Part shown: piece by piece, positions 1-19,885 of the stretch
Numbering within the stretch: the first letter of the stretch is position 1
How the letters are laid out: every line of letters starts with the position of its first letter
Source of the DNA: Cyanobium sp. E1_MAG_00006
GTDB taxonomy: Bacteria; Cyanobacteriota; Cyanobacteriia; PCC-6307; Cyanobiaceae
Reading direction: 5' to 3'
Length of the DNA: 64,000 bases
NCBI GenBank assembly: GCA_027488975.1
Contig: JAIYAQ010000029.1
Span: forward strand, 1 to 64,000
Notes under the pieces: model-generated
What the model saw: the letters and a program-made list of their open reading frames with translations, nothing else
Told to the model about the DNA's origin: nothing
Databases searched by the model: none
Program-made: the position numbers and the translations under genes

Positions 1-458
1 CGGTCGCGCTCGACCTGGATGCCGTTCGGGGGACCCATGCAGGTCTTGATGAAGGCAAGCGGGAAGCGGATGTCTTCCAGGCGCAGGTGGCGCAGGGCCT
101 TGAAGCCGAACACGTTGCCAACCAGGGAGGTCAGCACGTTGGTGATGGAACCCTCTTCGAACAAGTCGAGGGGGTAGGCGATGAACGCATAAAAGGCTTC
201 CTTGTCGCCAGGAACGTCTTCGATGCGGTAGCAGCGGCCCTTGTAGAAGTCGAGGTCGGTGAGGAGCTCGGACCACACAGTGGACCAGGTGCCGGTGGAG
301 GATTCAGCAGCCACAGCGGCTGCAACTTCCTCACGGGGCACACCTTCCTGGCCGGTGCACTTGAAGCAGGCCAGCAGGTCGGAATCGAGGGGGACGTAAT
401 CAGGAGTCCAATACGTGTCGCGGTACTCCTTAACCCCAGCGTCGTACTTCTTTGCCAT
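1..458 (-). CDS. rbcL: RuBisCO large subunit, form IA (5' part, cut by window edge)
   Basis: Catalytic large subunit of ribulose-1,5-bisphosphate carboxylase/oxygenase, packed inside the alpha-carboxysome. The first 152 codons are visible: the N-terminus begins [19 protein letters not shown] and continues with [16 protein letters not shown] and [19 protein letters not shown], which are typical form IA (cso-type) RbcL blocks. The gene runs off the left edge, so the active-site lysine and barrel are not in the window. ATG at 458 is preceded by GGAG (466-469) at 7 nt. It lies 74 nt downstream of csoS1 on the same strand, the usual csoS1-cbbL order in alpha-cyanobacteria; cbbS and csoS2 are expected further left. 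The 459-532 gap contains a short hairpin (GCCTT/AAGGC near 512-523) that may process or attenuate the csoS1-rbcL transcript (inference). Confidence 0.97.
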
Positions 459-532: not shown

Positions 533-847
533 TCAGTCCTTCGAACCAACGAAGCCGGCGCTGCTGTTCAGAGCAGGCTCAACTTCACGGTGGGGGCGGG
601 CAATGATGTGAGCGGCAACCAGGCCATCGCCCACGCGCTCGCAGGCATCAGCGCCGGCGCGCACAGCAGCGTTCACAGCGCCGGTTTCGCCGCGCACCAG
701 AACGGTGACGTAGCCGCCGCCTACGAACTCGCGACCGATCAGGCGCACTTCGGCAGCCTTGGTCATGGCGTCGGCCGCTTCGATCGCGGGGACCAGACCC
801 CGGGTCTCGATCATGCCGAGGGCGATACCCATGGTTTCGTTAGCCAT
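533..847 (-). CDS. csoS1: Alpha-carboxysome major shell protein CsoS1 (BMC-H)
   Basis: 104-residue single-domain bacterial microcompartment protein that forms hexamers tiling the facets of the carboxysome shell. The sequence MANETMGIALGMIETRGLVP, the GREFVGGGYVTVLVRGE pore-loop region and HIIARPHREVEP are hallmarks of CsoS1A/C. I chose ATG at 847 rather than an upstream in-frame start at 886 because it gives the family N-terminus and has AGGAG (854-858) at 6 nt. First shell gene before rbcL; the 848-1074 gap upstream carries a strong palindrome that may be a regulator site. Also called ccmK1 in some picocyanobacterial annotations. Confidence 0.97.
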   Translation of the reverse strand: MANETMGIALGMIETRGLVPAIEAADAMTKAAEVRLIGREFVGGGYVTVLVRGETGAVNAAVRAGADACERVGDGLVAAHIIARPHREVEPALNSSAGFVGSKD

Positions 848-864
848 TACCTGCTCCTGGAGGA

Positions 865-878
865 GGGGTGGAATGTTC
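865..878. repeat. 14-nt motif shared by the csoS1 and sbtA upstream regions (copy 1)
   Basis: GGGGTGGAATGTTC (plus-strand reading) lies in the csoS1 leader just upstream of its ribosome binding site; an identical copy lies at 2507-2520 upstream of sbtA, in the same orientation relative to the minus-strand genes. An exact 14-mer pair can arise by chance in 64 kb, so only the shared position near CCM genes makes it notable. Confidence 0.35.
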
Positions 879-953
879 GCCTGCAACCATGCTCGGCAGC
901 CGAGCCCCCCGTCAAGCCATTTGGGGAGAATGCACCATCACCGTCTTCGCATC

Positions 954-978
954 CACTGATAAGCGGGGCTCATCAGTG
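954..978. promoter_or_regulatory. Perfect T-N11-A palindrome upstream of csoS1 (LysR-type operator candidate)
   Basis: CACTGAT and ATCAGTG (954-960 and 972-978) form a perfect 7-bp inverted repeat separated by 11 nt, with the central T and A spaced as T-N11-A. That is the generic LysR-type regulator motif, and LysR proteins of the CbbR/CcmR/CmpR group control RuBisCO and carbon-uptake genes. It sits about 107 nt upstream of the csoS1 ATG, in the sbtB-csoS1 gap. It could instead be a transcript hairpin, since AGC/GCT inside the spacer can extend the stem. No LysR gene is in the window. Confidence 0.45.
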
Positions 979-1074
979 CATCACAAAACTTTGGAGATGC
1001 TTCTGTCCTGGCCCTGACACACGCCTTGCCCGGTCGCCGTCGCCACGGATCTCCCTGCGACTGCGGCACTGCCC

Positions 1075-1356
1075 TCACAGGGGTTCGGCCTCGGATACGT
1101 ACGCCACGCCACCGTAGTAATCGAGCAGCGGCTGGATCCCCTCACGCAGCTTCGGCAGGATGCCGGTCTCGCAGAACACGATCACGTGGGCGTTCGCCCC
1201 GAGGCCGCTGAAGTCCATCGCTTCGGAAACCGAGCCGTGCGGCCCCTTGCCAGTGACGTGGCGCATCACCGAGTAACCGGGGGCTTCAGCCGCCTCGATG
1301 GCCTTGATGACGGCATCCAGTTCGCGTTCGCTCAGGATCAGATCAACACGTTTCAT
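1075..1356 (-). CDS. sbtB: PII-like bicarbonate-transport regulator SbtB
   Basis: 93-residue ferredoxin-fold PII-superfamily protein that binds adenine nucleotides and controls the bicarbonate transporter SbtA. Visible: MKRVDLILSERELDAVIKAI at the N-terminus, a T-loop region around VTGKGPHGSVSEAMDFSG, ANAHVIVFCE, and the end DYYGGVAYVSEAEPL. It stops soon after the last strand, so the C-terminal redox loop with a CGPxGC motif found in the Synechocystis protein is absent. It begins 4 nt after the sbtA stop codon, so the two are co-transcribed and probably translationally coupled. Confidence 0.9.
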   Translation of the reverse strand: MKRVDLILSERELDAVIKAIEAAEAPGYSVMRHVTGKGPHGSVSEAMDFSGLGANAHVIVFCETGILPKLREGIQPLLDYYGGVAYVSEAEPL

Positions 1357-1360
1357 CGCG

Positions 1361-2362
1361 TCAGCCGGCAGCGGGGAGGAGTTTGTTGATCAGGGCCATG
1401 TACAGCGGAATGCCCACGATGATGTTGAAGGGGAAGGTGACACCCAGCGCCGTGGAGATGTAGAAGCTGGGATTGGCTTCCGGCACCGTCATGCGCATCG
1501 CGGCCGGCACGGCGATGTAGGAGGCGCTGGCGCACAGCACCGTGAACAGCAGGGCATTGCCCGGCTCGAGCCCCAGAGCCTTCGCGATCAGAGCTCCCAC
1601 CAGGGCGTTGCACAGCGGCATCAGCACGGCGAAGCCGATCAGGAAGCTGCCGGCTCGGCGCAGGTCATTGAGCCGCTGGGCGGCCACGATGCCCATGTCC
1701 AGCAGGAAGAAGCTGAGGACTCCGTAGAACAGCTTGTCGGTGAAGGGCAGCATCTTCTCGACGCTATGGGGGCTGTAGCCAGCCACCAGCACGCCGATCA
1801 CCAGGCTGCCCACCAGCAGGAACACCGAGCTGTTGAGGAAGGCCTCGTTGAGTACGGCGCCCCACTGCATGCCGTCGGCGCCGGGCCGTTGCTTGCGCGC
1901 TGGTGCCGCCAGTTTCACCAGCAGCAGCCCCACGATGATCGCGGGCGATTCCATCAGCGCCAGGGCCGCCACCATGAAGCCATCGAAGTGCAGCTTCTGG
2001 GATTCGAGAAAGGTCTCGGCGGTGATGAATGTCACCGCACTGATCGAGCCATAGGTGGCGGCCACGGCGGCCGCGTTGAAACCATCGAGCTTCAGCTTCA
2101 GCACCGCGAAGCTGTAGATCGGCACCAGCAGCGACATCGCCACCGCGGCGGCGATCGTGGGCAGAACCGGCCCACCAAGGCCGCTGTGCTGGAGCTCCAG
2201 GCCACCCTTGAAACCGATCGCCAGAAGGAGATAAAGAGAGAACAGCTTGGGAAGCGGTGCCGGGATCTCCAGATCGGAGCCCACCAGCACGGCGATCACC
2301 CCGAGAAAGAAGAACAGAACCGGCGGGGTGAGCAGGTTCTGCAGAACCAGGCTGGTGTCCAT
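1361..2362 (-). CDS. sbtA: Sodium-dependent bicarbonate transporter SbtA
   Basis: 333-residue inner-membrane Na+/HCO3- symporter that feeds the carboxysome. The start MDTSLVLQNLLTPPVLFFFL, the internally repeated 5+5 helix layout, GGLELQ, TYGSISAVTFITA, ESPAIIVGL and ASASYIAVPAAMRM are SbtA signatures. It is shorter than the roughly 370-residue beta-cyanobacterial enzyme because the central cytosolic loop is short. ATG at 2362 is preferred to an in-frame upstream start at 2428, which would add a non-family leader. It forms an operon with sbtB and diverges from rdgB. Confidence 0.93.
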   Translation of the reverse strand: MDTSLVLQNLLTPPVLFFFLGVIAVLVGSDLEIPAPLPKLFSLYLLLAIGFKGGLELQHSGLGGPVLPTIAAAVAMSLLVPIYSFAVLKLKLDGFNAAAVAATYGSISAVTFITAETFLESQKLHFDGFMVAALALMESPAIIVGLLLVKLAAPARKQRPGADGMQWGAVLNEAFLNSSVFLLVGSLVIGVLVAGYSPHSVEKMLPFTDKLFYGVLSFFLLDMGIVAAQRLNDLRRAGSFLIGFAVLMPLCNALVGALIAKALGLEPGNALLFTVLCASASYIAVPAAMRMTVPEANPSFYISTALGVTFPFNIIVGIPLYMALINKLLPAAG

Positions 2363-2461
2363 GCGGCCCCGGCGTGCCAGATCAGGAAACGCTACGCCGC
2401 CTGCTGCAACGTGTCCGTCGCTGCACACATGGCGGCTGGAACGCTTGCCCCAGCTGGATCC

Positions 2462-14290: not shown

Positions 14291-15142
14291 TCAGTCTGCT
14301 TTCTCGTCTTCGTCGTGAGCGAAGCGGTTGTAGAGAAAGTCGAGGGCGCTATTGCGCAGTTCGTAGTAGCGCGGGTCCTCCATGATGTCCTCACGGCTGC
14401 GGGGCCTCGGGAAATCGATCGTGAGGATCTCGCCGATGCCGGCGGCGGGGCCATTGGTCATCATCACTAGACGATCGGCGAGGAACAGGGCCTCGTCGAT
14501 GTCGTGGGTGATCATCAGCACCGTGCACTTCTGGGTGTTCCAGATCTTGAGCAGCTCCTCCTGGAGCTCCTCCTTGGTGATCGCATCGAGCGCTCCGAAG
14601 GGTTCATCGAGGATCAGCACGTCTGGCCGGATCGCCAGGGCGCGGGCAATCGCCACGCGCTGCTTCATGCCGCCGGAGATCTGGGTGATCTTCTTCTCGG
14701 CTGCCGCCGTCAGGCCCACCATCTCCAGGTGTTCCATGGCGATCTCGCGCTTCTCGTGCTCGGGCAGATTCGGTTTGACGGAATCGATGCCCAGATACAC
14801 GTTTTCATAGGCGCTCATCCACGGCAGCAGGGCATAGCCCTGGAACACCACCATGCGATCGGGACCGGGCTTCTCGATCGGTTTGCCGTTGAGCAGCACC
14901 TGACCCGAGGTGGGTGTGGCGAAGCCGGAAACCATGTTCAGCAGGGTGCTCTTGCCGCAACCGGAGTGACCGATCACGCAGACGAATTCACCCTGGTTGA
15001 CTTCGAAATTGATGTTCTCCAGAACGGGATAGGGCCCGGCTGGTGTTGGGTACACCTTGCCGAGCTGCTCGAAGCGCAGCAGGGGGGCGGTCCCCGCCGG
15101 GGTGGGGAGGCCGCTGGGTTGTTGCAGGACGGAGGCCGTCAT
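14291..15142 (-). CDS. nrtD: Nitrate ABC transporter ATPase NrtD
   Basis: 283-residue ATP-binding subunit of the nitrate/nitrite importer. Walker A GHSGCGKSTLLN, Q-loop region MVVFQGYALLPWMSAYENVY, signature QISGGMKQRVAIARAL, Walker B VLILDEPFGALD and switch His in VLMITHDIDEAL are all present, and the end DPRYYELRNSALDFLYNRF is typical for NrtD. Last gene of nrtABCD, 32 nt after nrtC. Confidence 0.96.
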   Translation of the reverse strand: MTASVLQQPSGLPTPAGTAPLLRFEQLGKVYPTPAGPYPVLENINFEVNQGEFVCVIGHSGCGKSTLLNMVSGFATPTSGQVLLNGKPIEKPGPDRMVVFQGYALLPWMSAYENVYLGIDSVKPNLPEHEKREIAMEHLEMVGLTAAAEKKITQISGGMKQRVAIARALAIRPDVLILDEPFGALDAITKEELQEELLKIWNTQKCTVLMITHDIDEALFLADRLVMMTNGPAAGIGEILTIDFPRPRSREDIMEDPRYYELRNSALDFLYNRFAHDEDEKAD

Positions 15143-15174
15143 GATCAGGAGCTCAGAGAGGGGAACAGGACAGA

Positions 15175-17196
15175 TCAGCCCGCCAGCGGCCGGGGAACTC
15201 CGAGCGGGATCTCGGCGACGCTGAAGTCGCGGTGCACGCTCACACTGTTGAGGTAGCCGATCGGATCGTTGCCATCGAAGGGATGGCCGTCGAACAGTTC
15301 GATGGCACTGCGCTGGTAGGTCACGTCCTCGAAGCCGAGCTCCCGTGCCGCCGTGCTGTACACGCTGACATTGCAGATGCGCTCGAGGATCTCCACGTAG
15401 TTGCGGGGGAAGGGAATCTCCGCCCAGCGGGCCAGCTGGGTGAGGATCCAGAGGTGCTCGCTGCGGCTGGGACGGTTGACGCCTGCACCGAAGAAGAGGT
15501 GATGGGGCTCTCCCTGTTCGCTGCTGGTTGTCGGCCCATGGGAGCCCTCGGCCACCTTCGAGCCGGTGCTGAAGTGGATCAGGTCCGGCTTGATGCCCAG
15601 ATAGCGCCGATCACTCAGAAGATCGGCCATCTCTGGCCAGTTGTTCGGATCCGAGCAGAACTGGCAGGCCTCCAGCAACGCCTTGGTCAGGGCGATGTGG
15701 GTGTTGGGGTAGGCCAGGGCCCAGTCTTCACGCACCCCGAGAACCTTGCCGGGGTGGCCGTTCCAGATCTCCAGGTCGCCCGCGATCGGCACGCCGTGCC
15801 GGTCGCGGGAGGCGCGCAGATTCCAGGGCTCCCCGCAGCAGAAGCCATCGATCGAGCCATCCTTGAGGTCGGCCAGCATCTGAGCTGGTGGCAGGGCCTG
15901 CAGATGCACGTCCTTGTCGGGATCGATGCCGCTGGCCGCCAGCCAGTAGCGCAGCAGCAGGTTGTGCATCGAGGCCGGATGCACGATCCCCAGCGTGTGC
16001 GGCTCGCGGTTGTGACTCTGCAGCCAGTTGCGGTAATCCTCAACGGAGTGGACGCCTGCATCGGAGAGGCGTTTGGCCAGGGTCACCTCGTTACCGTTGC
16101 GGCTGATGGTGAGGGCCGTCACGATCGGCAGGGGATCACCGCCATGGCCACCGGCGGCCATCCAGGTGGGCATGCCCGAGGGCATCAGGGCGGCGTCGAG
16201 GGTTTGATCCACAAAGCCATCGGTGACTCCGCGCCAGCTGGTCTCCCGCACCAGCTGCACCCCATCCAGACCGTGCTTGGCGAAGAAGCCTTTGGCTTCG
16301 GCGATCGCCAGCGGCGCGCACGCGGTCAGCGGGATGAACCCGAGGTCGAGGTTCACTTTCTCCAGGCCGTGGGCGGCCAGCACCTTGTGGGGCTTGGCCT
16401 GCCACTGCTTCACCCGCTTCTGGCGGTTCAGGAAGTAGATGATCTCCGAGCGCAGGCTGTAGTAGCTCGGGTGGTGCACCACCGTCATCCTCTGGCGTGG
16501 CCGCGGGATGTCCACCTCCAGGATGTTGCCGATCCTGGAGCCGGGGCCGTTGGTGAGGCAGATGATCCGATCCGAGAGCAGCACCGCCTCGTCGACGTCG
16601 TGCGTCACCATCACGGCGGTGAGCTGGTGTTCGTTGCAGATCTGCATCAGCTTCTCCTGCAGGTTGCCCCGCGAGAGAGCGTCCAGCGCTCCGAACGGTT
16701 CATCGAGCAGCAGTAGCTTCGGCTTGATCGCCAGGGCACGGGCGATCGCCACCCGCTGGCGCATGCCGCCTGACAGTTCATGGGGAAGCTTGTGGGCAGC
16801 GTGCCCAAGCCCCACCATCACGATGTGCTCCTGAATCAGCGTGTTGCGCTCATCGCTGGCGAGCCCGGGAAACACTTCATCGATGGCCAGGGCGATGTTC
16901 TGCTCGACGGTGAGCCAGGGCAGCAGCGAGTAGTTCTGGAACACCACCATCTTGTCGGGGCCAGGCCGCTTCACCGTTTCGCCGTCGACGAGGACGGTGC
17001 CGCCGGTGGGCAGATCGAGGCCGGCGATCATGTTGAGCAGGGTGCTCTTGCCGCAGCCGGAGTGGCCGATCAGGGAGATGAACTCGCCCCTGCGGATCTC
17101 GAGATCGATGCCCTTGAGGGCCAGGTAGTTGCCGCCGCCGCTGAGGGGAAAGTTCTTTTCCAGCTGCTGGACGTCGACGAGGGTTGTGGCTGTCAT
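15175..17196 (-). CDS. nrtC: Nitrate ABC transporter ATPase-sensor fusion NrtC
   Basis: 673-residue fusion specific to cyanobacterial nitrate importers: an ATPase domain (residues about 5-260, Walker A GHSGCGKSTLLN, signature ELSGGMRQRVAIA, Walker B LLLLDEPFGALD) joined to a NrtA-like substrate-binding domain (about 280-670; NLDLGFIPLTACAPLAIAEA, FFAKHGLDGVQLV, DGFCCGEPWNLRA). In Synechococcus elongatus the C-terminal domain mediates ammonium-promoted inhibition of nitrate uptake. ATG 17196 is chosen because the longer frame to 17241 adds an unrelated leader. Confidence 0.96.
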   Translation of the reverse strand: MTATTLVDVQQLEKNFPLSGGGNYLALKGIDLEIRRGEFISLIGHSGCGKSTLLNMIAGLDLPTGGTVLVDGETVKRPGPDKMVVFQNYSLLPWLTVEQNIALAIDEVFPGLASDERNTLIQEHIVMVGLGHAAHKLPHELSGGMRQRVAIARALAIKPKLLLLDEPFGALDALSRGNLQEKLMQICNEHQLTAVMVTHDVDEAVLLSDRIICLTNGPGSRIGNILEVDIPRPRQRMTVVHHPSYYSLRSEIIYFLNRQKRVKQWQAKPHKVLAAHGLEKVNLDLGFIPLTACAPLAIAEAKGFFAKHGLDGVQLVRETSWRGVTDGFVDQTLDAALMPSGMPTWMAAGGHGGDPLPIVTALTISRNGNEVTLAKRLSDAGVHSVEDYRNWLQSHNREPHTLGIVHPASMHNLLLRYWLAASGIDPDKDVHLQALPPAQMLADLKDGSIDGFCCGEPWNLRASRDRHGVPIAGDLEIWNGHPGKVLGVREDWALAYPNTHIALTKALLEACQFCSDPNNWPEMADLLSDRRYLGIKPDLIHFSTGSKVAEGSHGPTTSSEQGEPHHLFFGAGVNRPSRSEHLWILTQLARWAEIPFPRNYVEILERICNVSVYSTAARELGFEDVTYQRSAIELFDGHPFDGNDPIGYLNSVSVHRDFSVAEIPLGVPRPLAG

Positions 17197-17355
17197 GGTT
17201 GCGTTGGCAGTGGGGTTCAGCGAGTCAGATGCAGGGCCCACGAGCTGAAGCGGATCACCATGCCGCGCTTGAAGGCGGCCAGGCGGGCGTTGCGGACGAC
17301 CTGAATTCAGGGGCCTGGATGGTTGTGCCAGCAGGGTGGGATTGGCCGATGTGGC

Positions 17356-18177
17356 TCACTGACCCGGGGAGATGCGCTTCTGCAGCCAGGCCATGAAGCG
17401 GTCGAGGATCAGGCCGATGGCACCGATCCAGATGACGCCCAGCACAATTTCAGAGACGTAGCCGTTCTGGTTGGCATCCCAGATAAAGAAGCCGATTCCG
17501 GGGGTGCCGGGCATCACGATCTCAGCGGCGATGATCGCCAGCCAGGCCAGACCGATGGAGATGCGCAGGCCGGTGAAGATGTAGGGAAGAGCGGAAGGGA
17601 TCAGCACTTTGCTGAAGAAGCGGCCGCTGGACATCTGCAGAACCAGAGCCACATTGCGGTAATCCTGGGGAATCTGGCGGACACCCTCGGCCGTGTTGAT
17701 CAGGATCGGCCAGATCGACGTGATGAAGATCACGAAGATCGCCGCTGGCTGGTTCCGCTGAAACAGCACCAGGGCGATCGGCACCCAGGCCAGCGGCGCC
17801 ACCATGCGCAGGAACTGGAACAGGGGGTCGAAGGCCCGATCCAGCGATTTGTTCAGGCCCACGGCGATGCCGACTCCGATGCCGACGATCGCCGCCAGGG
17901 TGTAGCCGATGGCCACACGACCCAGGCTGCTCATGCTGTGATGAAACAGTCCTTTGTCCAGGCCGCCACGGTCGTAAAAGGGATAGAGGAGCAGCTCACG
18001 GGTCCGCTCATCGGTCCACAGACTGAGTGGGCCGGTCAGCTTGGTGAGCCCCAGGCTGGAGCTGAGCTGCCAGAACAGCAGAAAGCCCAGCGTGCCAAGC
18101 AGTGGTGGCAGGATCGATTGACGATTGCGCTTCCACCACAGACTGAGGGTGGAGCTGGAGTTGGGTGTTGTGGCCAT
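17356..18177 (-). CDS. nrtB: Nitrate ABC transporter permease NrtB
   Basis: 273-residue inner-membrane permease with about six helices. Seen: ILPPLLGTLGFLLFWQLSSS near the N-terminus, HHSMSSLGRVAIGYTLAAIV, LRMVAPLAWVPIALVLFQ and the EAA-like coupling loop SALPYIFTGLRISIGLAWLA. It receives nitrate from NrtA and couples to NrtC/NrtD. Lies 82 nt after nrtA; the 159-nt gap before nrtC is long for the operon but shows no gene. Confidence 0.95.
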   Translation of the reverse strand: MATTPNSSSTLSLWWKRNRQSILPPLLGTLGFLLFWQLSSSLGLTKLTGPLSLWTDERTRELLLYPFYDRGGLDKGLFHHSMSSLGRVAIGYTLAAIVGIGVGIAVGLNKSLDRAFDPLFQFLRMVAPLAWVPIALVLFQRNQPAAIFVIFITSIWPILINTAEGVRQIPQDYRNVALVLQMSSGRFFSKVLIPSALPYIFTGLRISIGLAWLAIIAAEIVMPGTPGIGFFIWDANQNGYVSEIVLGVIWIGAIGLILDRFMAWLQKRISPGQ

Positions 18178-18259
18178 GGTGATGCTGCTCTGAAGTGATG
18201 AGTTGTGGTGGAAATGGAATCTGAAGCTCTAGCCTGTCTGCGGAGTGTTCAGGGGTGGC

Positions 18260-19600
18260 TCATTTCTTGATCTTCAGGCTATTGAGATAAGCTTGAGGGT
18301 TTTCTGGGTCATAGATCGTTCCATCGAAGAAGATCTCCTTGCCGCGGCTGGAGGTTGTGGGAATGTCTTTGGAGGGAACTCCAACTTCTTTCGCCGCCTG
18401 TCTCCAGAGGTCTTCGCGGGTGACGCGATCGTTGAGTGCCTTGGCTTCGGCAATCGTGTCGATCGTTCCTGGATAGAATTTCCAGCGCAGTGATTCGATC
18501 AGGAACCACAGCGTCAGGCTTTTGTAGGGATAGGAGATCACGCCACGTTCGCTGTTCCAGTACAGCGGGCCCATGCTTGAATCGGTTTGGGTTGTCCCCT
18601 TGGCGCCCAGCTTGTATTGCCCTTTCAATGTCTGCTCAAGCAGCTCCCTGGGTACGTTGTACCACTTGCGCGAGGACAGAATCTCAGCGGCTTCTGCCTT
18701 GTTTTCGGGCTTGTCAAGCCACATCTGTGACTCGATTAGTCCCTTCAACAATGCCACTGTGGCTTTCGGGTGTTTGTCAACCCAGTCGCTGCGGATGGCC
18801 AGATACTCTTCTGGGTGAGCTTTCCAGATCTGGGCTGTGAGTGCTGCCAGATAGCCGATGTCCTGCTTGGCAATCCGGGATGGCCAGGGGTCGCCGGTTG
18901 AGAAGGCTTCCATCGTCCCGTTGCGCATCCCCTGCAGGGTCTCTGGCGCCGGCACGGTGAGCAGTTCCACATCCTTGTCCGGGTTCACCCCATTGGCTGC
19001 CAGCCAATAGCGGATCCACATGTCCTGATTGGCCTTGGGGAAGCTGTAGGCCGCTCTGAACTTGCGACCCTCCCGATCTTCAAACTTGGCAAAGAAGCCT
19101 GGGGAAGAGCTTCTCAGGTCGGCGCTCAGATTGGCATCCTTCACGCTGTTGGCTGCAGCGATGCCATTCCCCTGGCTCATCAGCATGGCAAGGATGACCA
19201 TCGGCACCTTCTTGCCGTTGGTGAGGGTCCCTTCGCTGATCATCTGGGGCATCGGCAGTTGCCACTGGCCGCCATCGATGCCGCCACCCTCCGAGCCGAG
19301 CACCACGTTGTCGCGCGCCGTCGACCAACTTGCCTGCTTGCTCGCCGTCACCTGAAGGCCATGCTTGGCGAAGAAGCCCTTCTCAACGCCGATCACCAGT
19401 GGAGCTGATTCCAGAATCGGGACAAAGCCCAGGCTGATTGTTTTGGTTTCAAGTTTGCTGGCAGCCTGCGCGTTGATTGGCGTGGAGGTTGCAGCGTATC
19501 TGGATGTTCGGCTCGGTGGATTGCCGAGACAACCTGCCAAGAGGAATGACGTGGATAGGGCTCCTGCAAGCAGGGCGAGGAAGGGGCGGCGCTTGGGCAT
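18260..19600 (-). CDS. nrtA: Nitrate-binding lipoprotein NrtA
   Basis: 446-residue periplasmic nitrate/nitrite-binding protein anchored by lipid. Signal peptide with lipobox LLAGC around residue 23, then the CmpA/NrtA fold: ISLGFVPILESAPLVIGVEK, FFAKHGLQVTASKQASW, VLGSEGGGIDGGQWQLPMPQ, AYSFPKANQDMWIRYWLAAN, GTMEAFSTGDPWPSRIAK. The LPMPQMIS segment and ligand-loop tryptophans favour NrtA over the bicarbonate protein CmpA, as does linkage to nrtBCD. First gene of the operon. A perfect NtcA consensus box is not visible upstream. Confidence 0.94.
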   Translation of the reverse strand: MPKRRPFLALLAGALSTSFLLAGCLGNPPSRTSRYAATSTPINAQAASKLETKTISLGFVPILESAPLVIGVEKGFFAKHGLQVTASKQASWSTARDNVVLGSEGGGIDGGQWQLPMPQMISEGTLTNGKKVPMVILAMLMSQGNGIAAANSVKDANLSADLRSSSPGFFAKFEDREGRKFRAAYSFPKANQDMWIRYWLAANGVNPDKDVELLTVPAPETLQGMRNGTMEAFSTGDPWPSRIAKQDIGYLAALTAQIWKAHPEEYLAIRSDWVDKHPKATVALLKGLIESQMWLDKPENKAEAAEILSSRKWYNVPRELLEQTLKGQYKLGAKGTTQTDSSMGPLYWNSERGVISYPYKSLTLWFLIESLRWKFYPGTIDTIAEAKALNDRVTREDLWRQAAKEVGVPSKDIPTTSSRGKEIFFDGTIYDPENPQAYLNSLKIKK

Positions 19601-19885
19601 GGAGATTCAGAGACAGGAGAACGATTGCTGGACGCATTGCGAGGGGCGGAACTTGCTGCCTTGGGGACTCAGATTGCCGTCCCCTCTGGCTGCTGCGAAT
19701 CGGTTGTTCGGCACAAGTTCAGATAGGGCTGTCTCAGCAGTTTGTGAGAGGGTTTTGAGGCAGCACGGTCTCCGTTATTTGTCGTCGGGGAACGTTAGAG
19801 GTGTGGTTCCGGCGGCTGGGGAGGGTATTGCTAAGCAATGGCGACAGTGGTCATAAGATCTGGTTATGCAGCCGCTGTCTCTCAT
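19601..19885. other. Upstream region of nrtA with two short palindromes
   Basis: 285 nt between nrtA and the small membrane-protein gene. ATTGCT-A-AGCAAT (19827-19839) and CATAA-N7-TTATG (19852-19868) are perfect inverted repeats. I searched by eye for GTA-N8-TAC on this stretch and did not find it. The nitrate operon promoter must lie here. Confidence 0.45.

Follow-up and report, generated by a model that had tools for sequence, protein, structure and literature searches.

A conserved putative operator for the LysR-type regulator RbcR in the promoter region of the picocyanobacterial alpha-carboxysome operon

Prochlorococcus and marine Synechococcus account for much of the carbon fixed in the ocean, and the control of the picocyanobacterial carboxysome operon is poorly known. 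The question raised by the locus described here is which regulator acts in the short gap in front of the first gene of this operon, and on which bases. The stretch of DNA that we analyzed (the window) comprises 64,000 nucleotides of a Cyanobium genome. Near its start the minus strand carries, in this order, sbtA, sbtB, a 227-bp gap, csoS1 and the beginning of rbcL. The bicarbonate transporter gene sbtA (1361..2428) was recognized by PF05982 and the PII-like sbtB (1075..1356), the upstream neighbor of csoS1, by PF00543. The first gene of the operon, csoS1 (533..847), encodes the alpha-carboxysome major shell protein; its product has a BMC domain and scores above the cut-off of the NCBIfam CsoS1 equivalog model. 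It is followed by the 5' part of rbcL (cbbL; 3..458, RuBisCO large N domain), and because the contig end cuts rbcL the remainder of the carboxysome operon lies outside the window. Residues 114-152 of the rbcL query, a stretch of 39, recur with 100% identity on contig C40 of the assembly, the truncated copy being on C9.

The initial annotation of this gap reported a perfect inverted repeat, CACTGAT-N11-ATCAGTG, and the sequence check bore this out: CACTGATAAGCGGGGCTCATCAGTG is matched exactly at 954-978. A single palindrome is weak evidence, and on its own it could be explained by chance. The window contains 16 exact inverted repeats of the form 7-N11-7. When the gap was shuffled 1000 times by mononucleotide, a 7-bp repeat with a spacer of 11 arose in 1.7% of the shuffles and one with any spacer from 0 to 30 in 31.7%. 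With up to three mismatches allowed, the palindrome pattern has 3 occurrences in the window, where dinucleotide shuffles predict 2.42. We judge the palindrome to be real because, unlike what these lone-repeat statistics can offer, it is conserved among relatives.

Matches resembling csoS1 were present in 97 of 99 relatives, and the upstream sequence was usable in 57 of the 61 genomes of the family, which is the basis of every count out of 57 given here for the csoS1 regions. The rows excluded before counting were L012 (a duplicate of L001), L062 (the second copy in G025), L063 (G004, partial csoS1) and L035, which carried the wrong flank of G047 and was replaced by L061; G034 (paralogue only), G043 and G050 had no usable csoS1 start. 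Absence of conservation in relatives was what the initial annotation had named as grounds for refutation, and in this comparison the site held up, with T-N11-A at the aligned position in 57 of the 57 upstream regions. The conserved part is the inner core ATnAG-N5-CTTAT (exact in 52/57), together with a GTGAT block and a -35 element nearer to the gene, whereas the outer arms CACTG/CAGTG are not kept: the exact palindrome CACTGAT/ATCAGTG occurs in 4/57 regions and was rejected as the conserved unit. The pattern ATnAG-N5-CTnAT was found within 400 nt 5' of csoS1 in 53 of 57 regions, compared with 0.25 in shuffles. Among 24 representatives that are less than 70% identical to one another, 22 keep this pattern, and the information content averages 1.94 bits over the eight core columns, against 0.31 bits for the N5 spacer and 0.28 bits for the upstream flank. 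With the core columns conserved and their surroundings variable, the target of selection is therefore the inner core rather than the sequence around it. In the window, the operator TGATGAG-CCCCG-CTTATCA occupies 957..975 on the minus strand, and its minimal core ATGAG-N5-CTTAT, in the T-N11-A register, 959..973. The proposal of a LysR-type operator at the csoS1 promoter is thus supported as a putative site.

The core is the first of several blocks that keep a fixed order in the aligned register of the 57 regions, namely the core, GTGAT, TTGAC, an 18-bp spacer and CAnnGT. The GTGAT block (937..941, minus strand), a candidate second contact for the regulator, has its T, A and T in 57/57 regions and its two G positions in 46/57 and 49/57; its TGAT repeats, 35 bp further on, the outer part of the half-site. 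We read the next two blocks as the -35 and -10 elements of a predicted promoter: TTGACG (910..915, minus strand), in which TTGAC is invariant in 57/57, and, after the 18-bp spacer, CATGGT (886..891, minus strand), where CAnnGT has its A and T in 57/57 and its C and G in 54/57. A scan of the csoS1 upstream region with the sigma-70 consensus did not find a promoter. The start of transcription is predicted near window position 879, or near -32 from the csoS1 ATG, and with the start so placed the core would be centered about 87 bp, and the GTGAT block lie about 60 bp, upstream of it. Within the family, the 5' leader predicted for csoS1 (window 864-879; GAACATTCCA...) is strongly conserved. It may be a place of control at the RNA level, since csoS1 is a reported target of the sRNA Yfr10 in Prochlorococcus MED4 (PMC6778093).

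An exact search with the composite ATNAG-N5-CTTAT-N17-GTGAT-N20-CTTGAC in a collection of species genomes from bacteria and archaea (84,980 in all) returned 92 stretches, and in 91 of them the core begins 123-129 nt 5' of a csoS1 start; the remaining match, in a Paenibacillus without csoS1, was taken as chance. Among the 80 matches listed, 79 carry cyanobacterial names, which include Prochlorococcus, Synechococcus, Cyanobium and Vulcanococcus, the other being the Paenibacillus. The genomes that contain the composite overlap those of the 57 csoS1 regions. A promoter carried by phages was also considered and rejected: viral contigs gave one exact match, to a slightly relaxed pattern, on a contig without csoS1, and this was likewise taken as chance. 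On one contig of a relative (G025 contig C17, 36.9 kb; L048 and L062), csoS1 with identical upstream sequence lies near both ends in opposite orientations, which is probably an effect of the assembly.

The choice of candidate regulators is narrow. A search for both the substrate and the helix-turn-helix domains found one LysR-type protein in the genome, encoded outside the window on another contig (L065). The substrate domain (PF03466) was detected in 56 of the 62 family genomes and in all 35 of the good ones, with exactly one match in 25 of these 35 and two to six matches, some of them weak, in the other 10. Of the 54 genomes of the class outside the family, 47 have a best match to this protein that is 65-73% identical and the other seven one that is 50-57% identical, while the next LysR family member reaches at most 37%. 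By sequence comparison, the lone LysR-type protein is the orthologue of RbcR, one-to-one across the class, and in the 25 of these class genomes whose loci were compared the DNA-binding helix is nearly identical, differing from that of the window genome by nothing but conservative changes. The initial annotation had pointed to CbbR/CcmR proteins as the regulators of such sites. The LysR-type part of that proposal stands, with the RbcR orthologue as the one protein, and the CcmR part falls: the single LysR-type gene found by both domains leaves neither CcmR nor CmpR in this genome, and both were rejected as its regulators since that gene is the rbcR orthologue.

RbcR of Synechocystis (Sll0998) is described (PMC13249358) as binding ATTA(G/A)-N5-(C/T)TAAT, as activating from about 90 nt upstream of the transcription start and repressing from about 10 nt, and as activating its own gene. 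Prochlorococcus MED4 is said to encode a LysR-type RbcR (PMC6778093), and Zinser et al. (2009; PMC2663038) give no CbbR-type paralogue in MED4 besides PMM0147, whose rise precedes or coincides with Calvin-cycle expression; sbtA and bicA cycle there together with the carboxysome genes. We consider it probable that the csoS1 site is an operator of RbcR, acting as a LysR-type activator, in the promoter of the alpha-carboxysome and RuBisCO operon. This reading draws on the conservation of the site and the near restriction of the composite to csoS1 starts, on the single LysR-type protein and its orthology to RbcR, on an N5 spacing, a T-N11-A register and 8 of 10 half-site bases that agree with the published consensus, on a distance to the predicted start close to the 90 nt or so that is reported, on the expression of the MED4 orthologue with or before the Calvin-cycle genes, and on sites of the same design before two further genes, cmpA (7 of 8 genes) and a DUF2811 gene (35 of 50 loci).

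The first of these further sites is in the window itself. With a matrix built from the 57 csoS1 sites, the window's own csoS1 site scores 27.5 and the lowest of the 57 scores 13.4; the next-best match in the window, at 14.5, is GCATAAC-CAGAT-CTTATGA in gene orientation (19851..19869, minus strand). Another matrix match, at window 50808, falls within a coding frame and was discarded. The 19851-19869 site lies 251-269 nt 5' of cmpA (18260..19600, minus strand), which encodes a bicarbonate-binding protein (532 bits to the PDB entry for CmpA, 2i48, versus 383 bits to that for NrtA, 2g29) and is the first of four genes in cmpABCD order; cmpB (17356-18177), cmpC (15175-17241) and cmpD (14291-15142) were named by sequence and order. 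A search for cmpA-type genes in 37 family genomes turned up eight, spread over 7 genomes. A site is clear at seven of these genes, starting at -231 to -276, and each of these seven outscores all 60 block shuffles; at one gene (L389) the top matrix position lies further out, at -415, and the orthologous site scores 16.5. At the eighth gene (L390) a site is not evident, since 5 of its 60 shuffles did equally well. Measured against ATnAG-N5-CTnAT, two of the eight genes match at 8/8 positions, five at 7 and L390 at 6, most cmpA sites having one half-site mismatch. The nrtA-type paralogues of the same genus have the site in 0 of 5 cases, and one of them (L408) was confirmed as NrtA by 536 versus 402 bits. 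One genome (G029) contains two cmpA-type genes with broken frames in both (L372 and L390), one with a perfect operator and the other with none clear. In the window, 12 kb separate the carboxysome operon from this cmpABCD-like operon (14291-19600), which few relatives possess. As CmpR is missing from the genome, RbcR may have taken over the control of cmp.

The second further site precedes a gene for a DUF2811 protein. Of the 57 genomes that gave a DUF2811 match we examined 50 (30 loci plus 20 chosen further), and ATnAG-N5-CTnAT was present in 35 of the 50 upstream regions (560 nt), whereas 200 rounds of shuffling gave a mean of 0.5 regions with a site and a maximum of 3. In our own genome the site reads CGATCAGCACTGCTGATCG (L338, G000:C27). 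The third half-site positions of the 35 sites include T/A, the Synechocystis form, in 5, A/T in 2 and C/G in 11. The longer pattern TGATNAG-N5-CTNATCA occurs at 40 places in the 62 family genomes against 4 for a reversed control; by position, 9 of the 40 were assigned to csoS1, 14 to this DUF2811 site and 1 to cmpA; the other 16 are unassigned, and one of them (G053:C4) is located 337 nt upstream of a second DUF2811-type match. A DUF1818 gene lies upstream on the same strand in 44 of the 50 loci, and was not detected in our own genome; an alternative reading of the DUF2811 site is a hairpin after DUF1818. Across these loci (L338 and 49 relatives), the site of csoS1 design lies upstream of DnaA-box-like TTTTCCACA sequences, an anchor that is absent in 9 of the 50, and in many of them an inverted GTGGAAAA follows about 45 nt beyond TTTTCCACA. 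This stretch may serve as a regulated promoter or as a place where DnaA binds. The identification of the DUF2811 gene as the hyper-conserved PSHCP was rejected, given that its neighborhood differs from the one described in PMC4215834 and that Pfam assigns it to DUF2811.

It is unlikely that another dimeric regulator, either of a non-LysR type or a LysR-type protein other than RbcR, occupies the csoS1 site, although several observations point that way. At base 3 of the half-sites, the T that the Synechocystis consensus has on the left occurs in 2/57 regions and its A on the right in 1/57, so the csoS1 sites depart from the strict form ATTA(G/A)-N5-(C/T)TAAT. Neither rbcR, with 0 of 30 family upstream regions of 400 nt containing a site, nor sbtA, a reported RbcR target with no match to the csoS1-site matrix before it in the window, has an operator of this design. 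The strict published motif is also rare before rbcL in other cyanobacteria, being found in 1 of 25 against 0.21 in shuffles (the relaxed motif in 6 of 25 against 1.4). Against such a regulator stand the T-N11-A geometry, half-sites spaced by N5 in the same register as those of RbcR, the presence of a single LysR-type protein in the genome, and the nature of the targets, which are RuBisCO and carboxysome genes and genes for bicarbonate uptake.

We regard it as improbable that RbcR sits on the site as a repressor, or that the true start is elsewhere, so that the architecture would not be that of an activator. The csoS1 start is a predicted one, and RbcR is reported to repress when bound about 10 nt upstream of a start (PMC13249358); but the register of core, GTGAT, TTGAC and CAnnGT, fixed in 57/57 regions, puts the core near the distance from which activation has been reported. 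That the palindrome is an RNA hairpin which terminates or attenuates transcription between sbtB and csoS1 is very improbable: the minus-strand RNA does fold (-21.9 kcal/mol, z -4.95), but a terminator scan was negative, no U-run (T run) follows the stem, the outer stem of the hairpin varies among relatives whereas the inner core hardly changes, and in 70 loci (two locus sets that overlap in their genomes) the element is flanked by the divergent genes ham1 and csoS1 and precedes the predicted start. A functionless chance palindrome, for which the abundance of such repeats in the window would speak, we dismiss almost entirely on the conservation of the site in 57/57 regions, the 24 divergent representatives among them.

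Returning to RbcR as the activator, we infer a mechanism in which an RbcR dimer, half of the LysR-type tetramer, would occupy ATnAG-N5-CTTAT at about -87, and the tetramer would probably also contact the GTGAT block at about -60. A metabolite effector would report the carbon status to RbcR; for the red-algal orthologue Ycf30, RuBP, 3-PGA and NADPH are the effectors reported (PMC4390856). The effector-bound RbcR would then recruit the polymerase to TTGAC-N18-CAnnGT and so activate the operon. More tentatively, and with rather less than even confidence, we suggest that RbcR, with CcmR and CmpR absent, has become the sole LysR-type switch for carbon supply in picocyanobacteria, acting on the horizontally acquired alpha-carboxysome operon, on the bicarbonate transporter BCT1 and on the DUF2811 gene, with a possible tie between carbon fixation and the cell cycle because the DUF2811 gene adjoins the DnaA-box-like cluster.

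For an operon whose control is so little understood, these results pin the site down to the base, leave a single candidate regulator and outline a conserved arrangement of promoter elements, along with two further candidate targets, cmpA and the DUF2811 gene. The RuBisCO operon is held to stem from gene transfer (PMC1904183, PMC4390856), and the site suggests a route by which a transferred operon joined a native cyanobacterial regulator. RbcR has already been proposed as a regulator, and the present analysis adds its putative binding site; in the open-licence part of the literature we did not find a report of this operator at csoS1.

Compared with known systems, the csoS1 site belongs to a known type, of which it is a variant particular to this lineage, and the targets proposed for it form a new set. 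It is closest to the RbcR operator of Synechocystis PCC 6803, with which it shares the N5 spacing, the T-N11-A register, 8 of the 10 half-site bases and RuBisCO and CCM targets; its distance to the start would also be similar (about 90 nt there, about 87 nt here from the predicted start). It differs from it in the third half-site base, here mostly C, A or G in the left half-site and mostly T in the right one, in its target, an alpha-carboxysome operon with form IA RuBisCO, and in that no site was found before rbcR (0/30) or, within the window, sbtA. Proteobacterial CbbR is likewise described as a LysR-type activator of form IA RuBisCO operons, at cbb and cso (PMC1904183); in the cbbR-cso type its gene lies beside the operon, whereas here the regulator is encoded on another contig and belongs to the RbcR lineage. 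The CcmR/NdhR operator, ATAG-N8-CTAT, also serves a LysR-type protein at inorganic-carbon genes (PMC13249358), but the spacer here is N5 and the genome has no second LysR-type gene. The same source gives TTA-N7/8-TAA as the operator of CmpR in the LysR-type control of BCT1; unlike in that system, there is no CmpR here, and the site before cmpA has the design of the csoS1 site.
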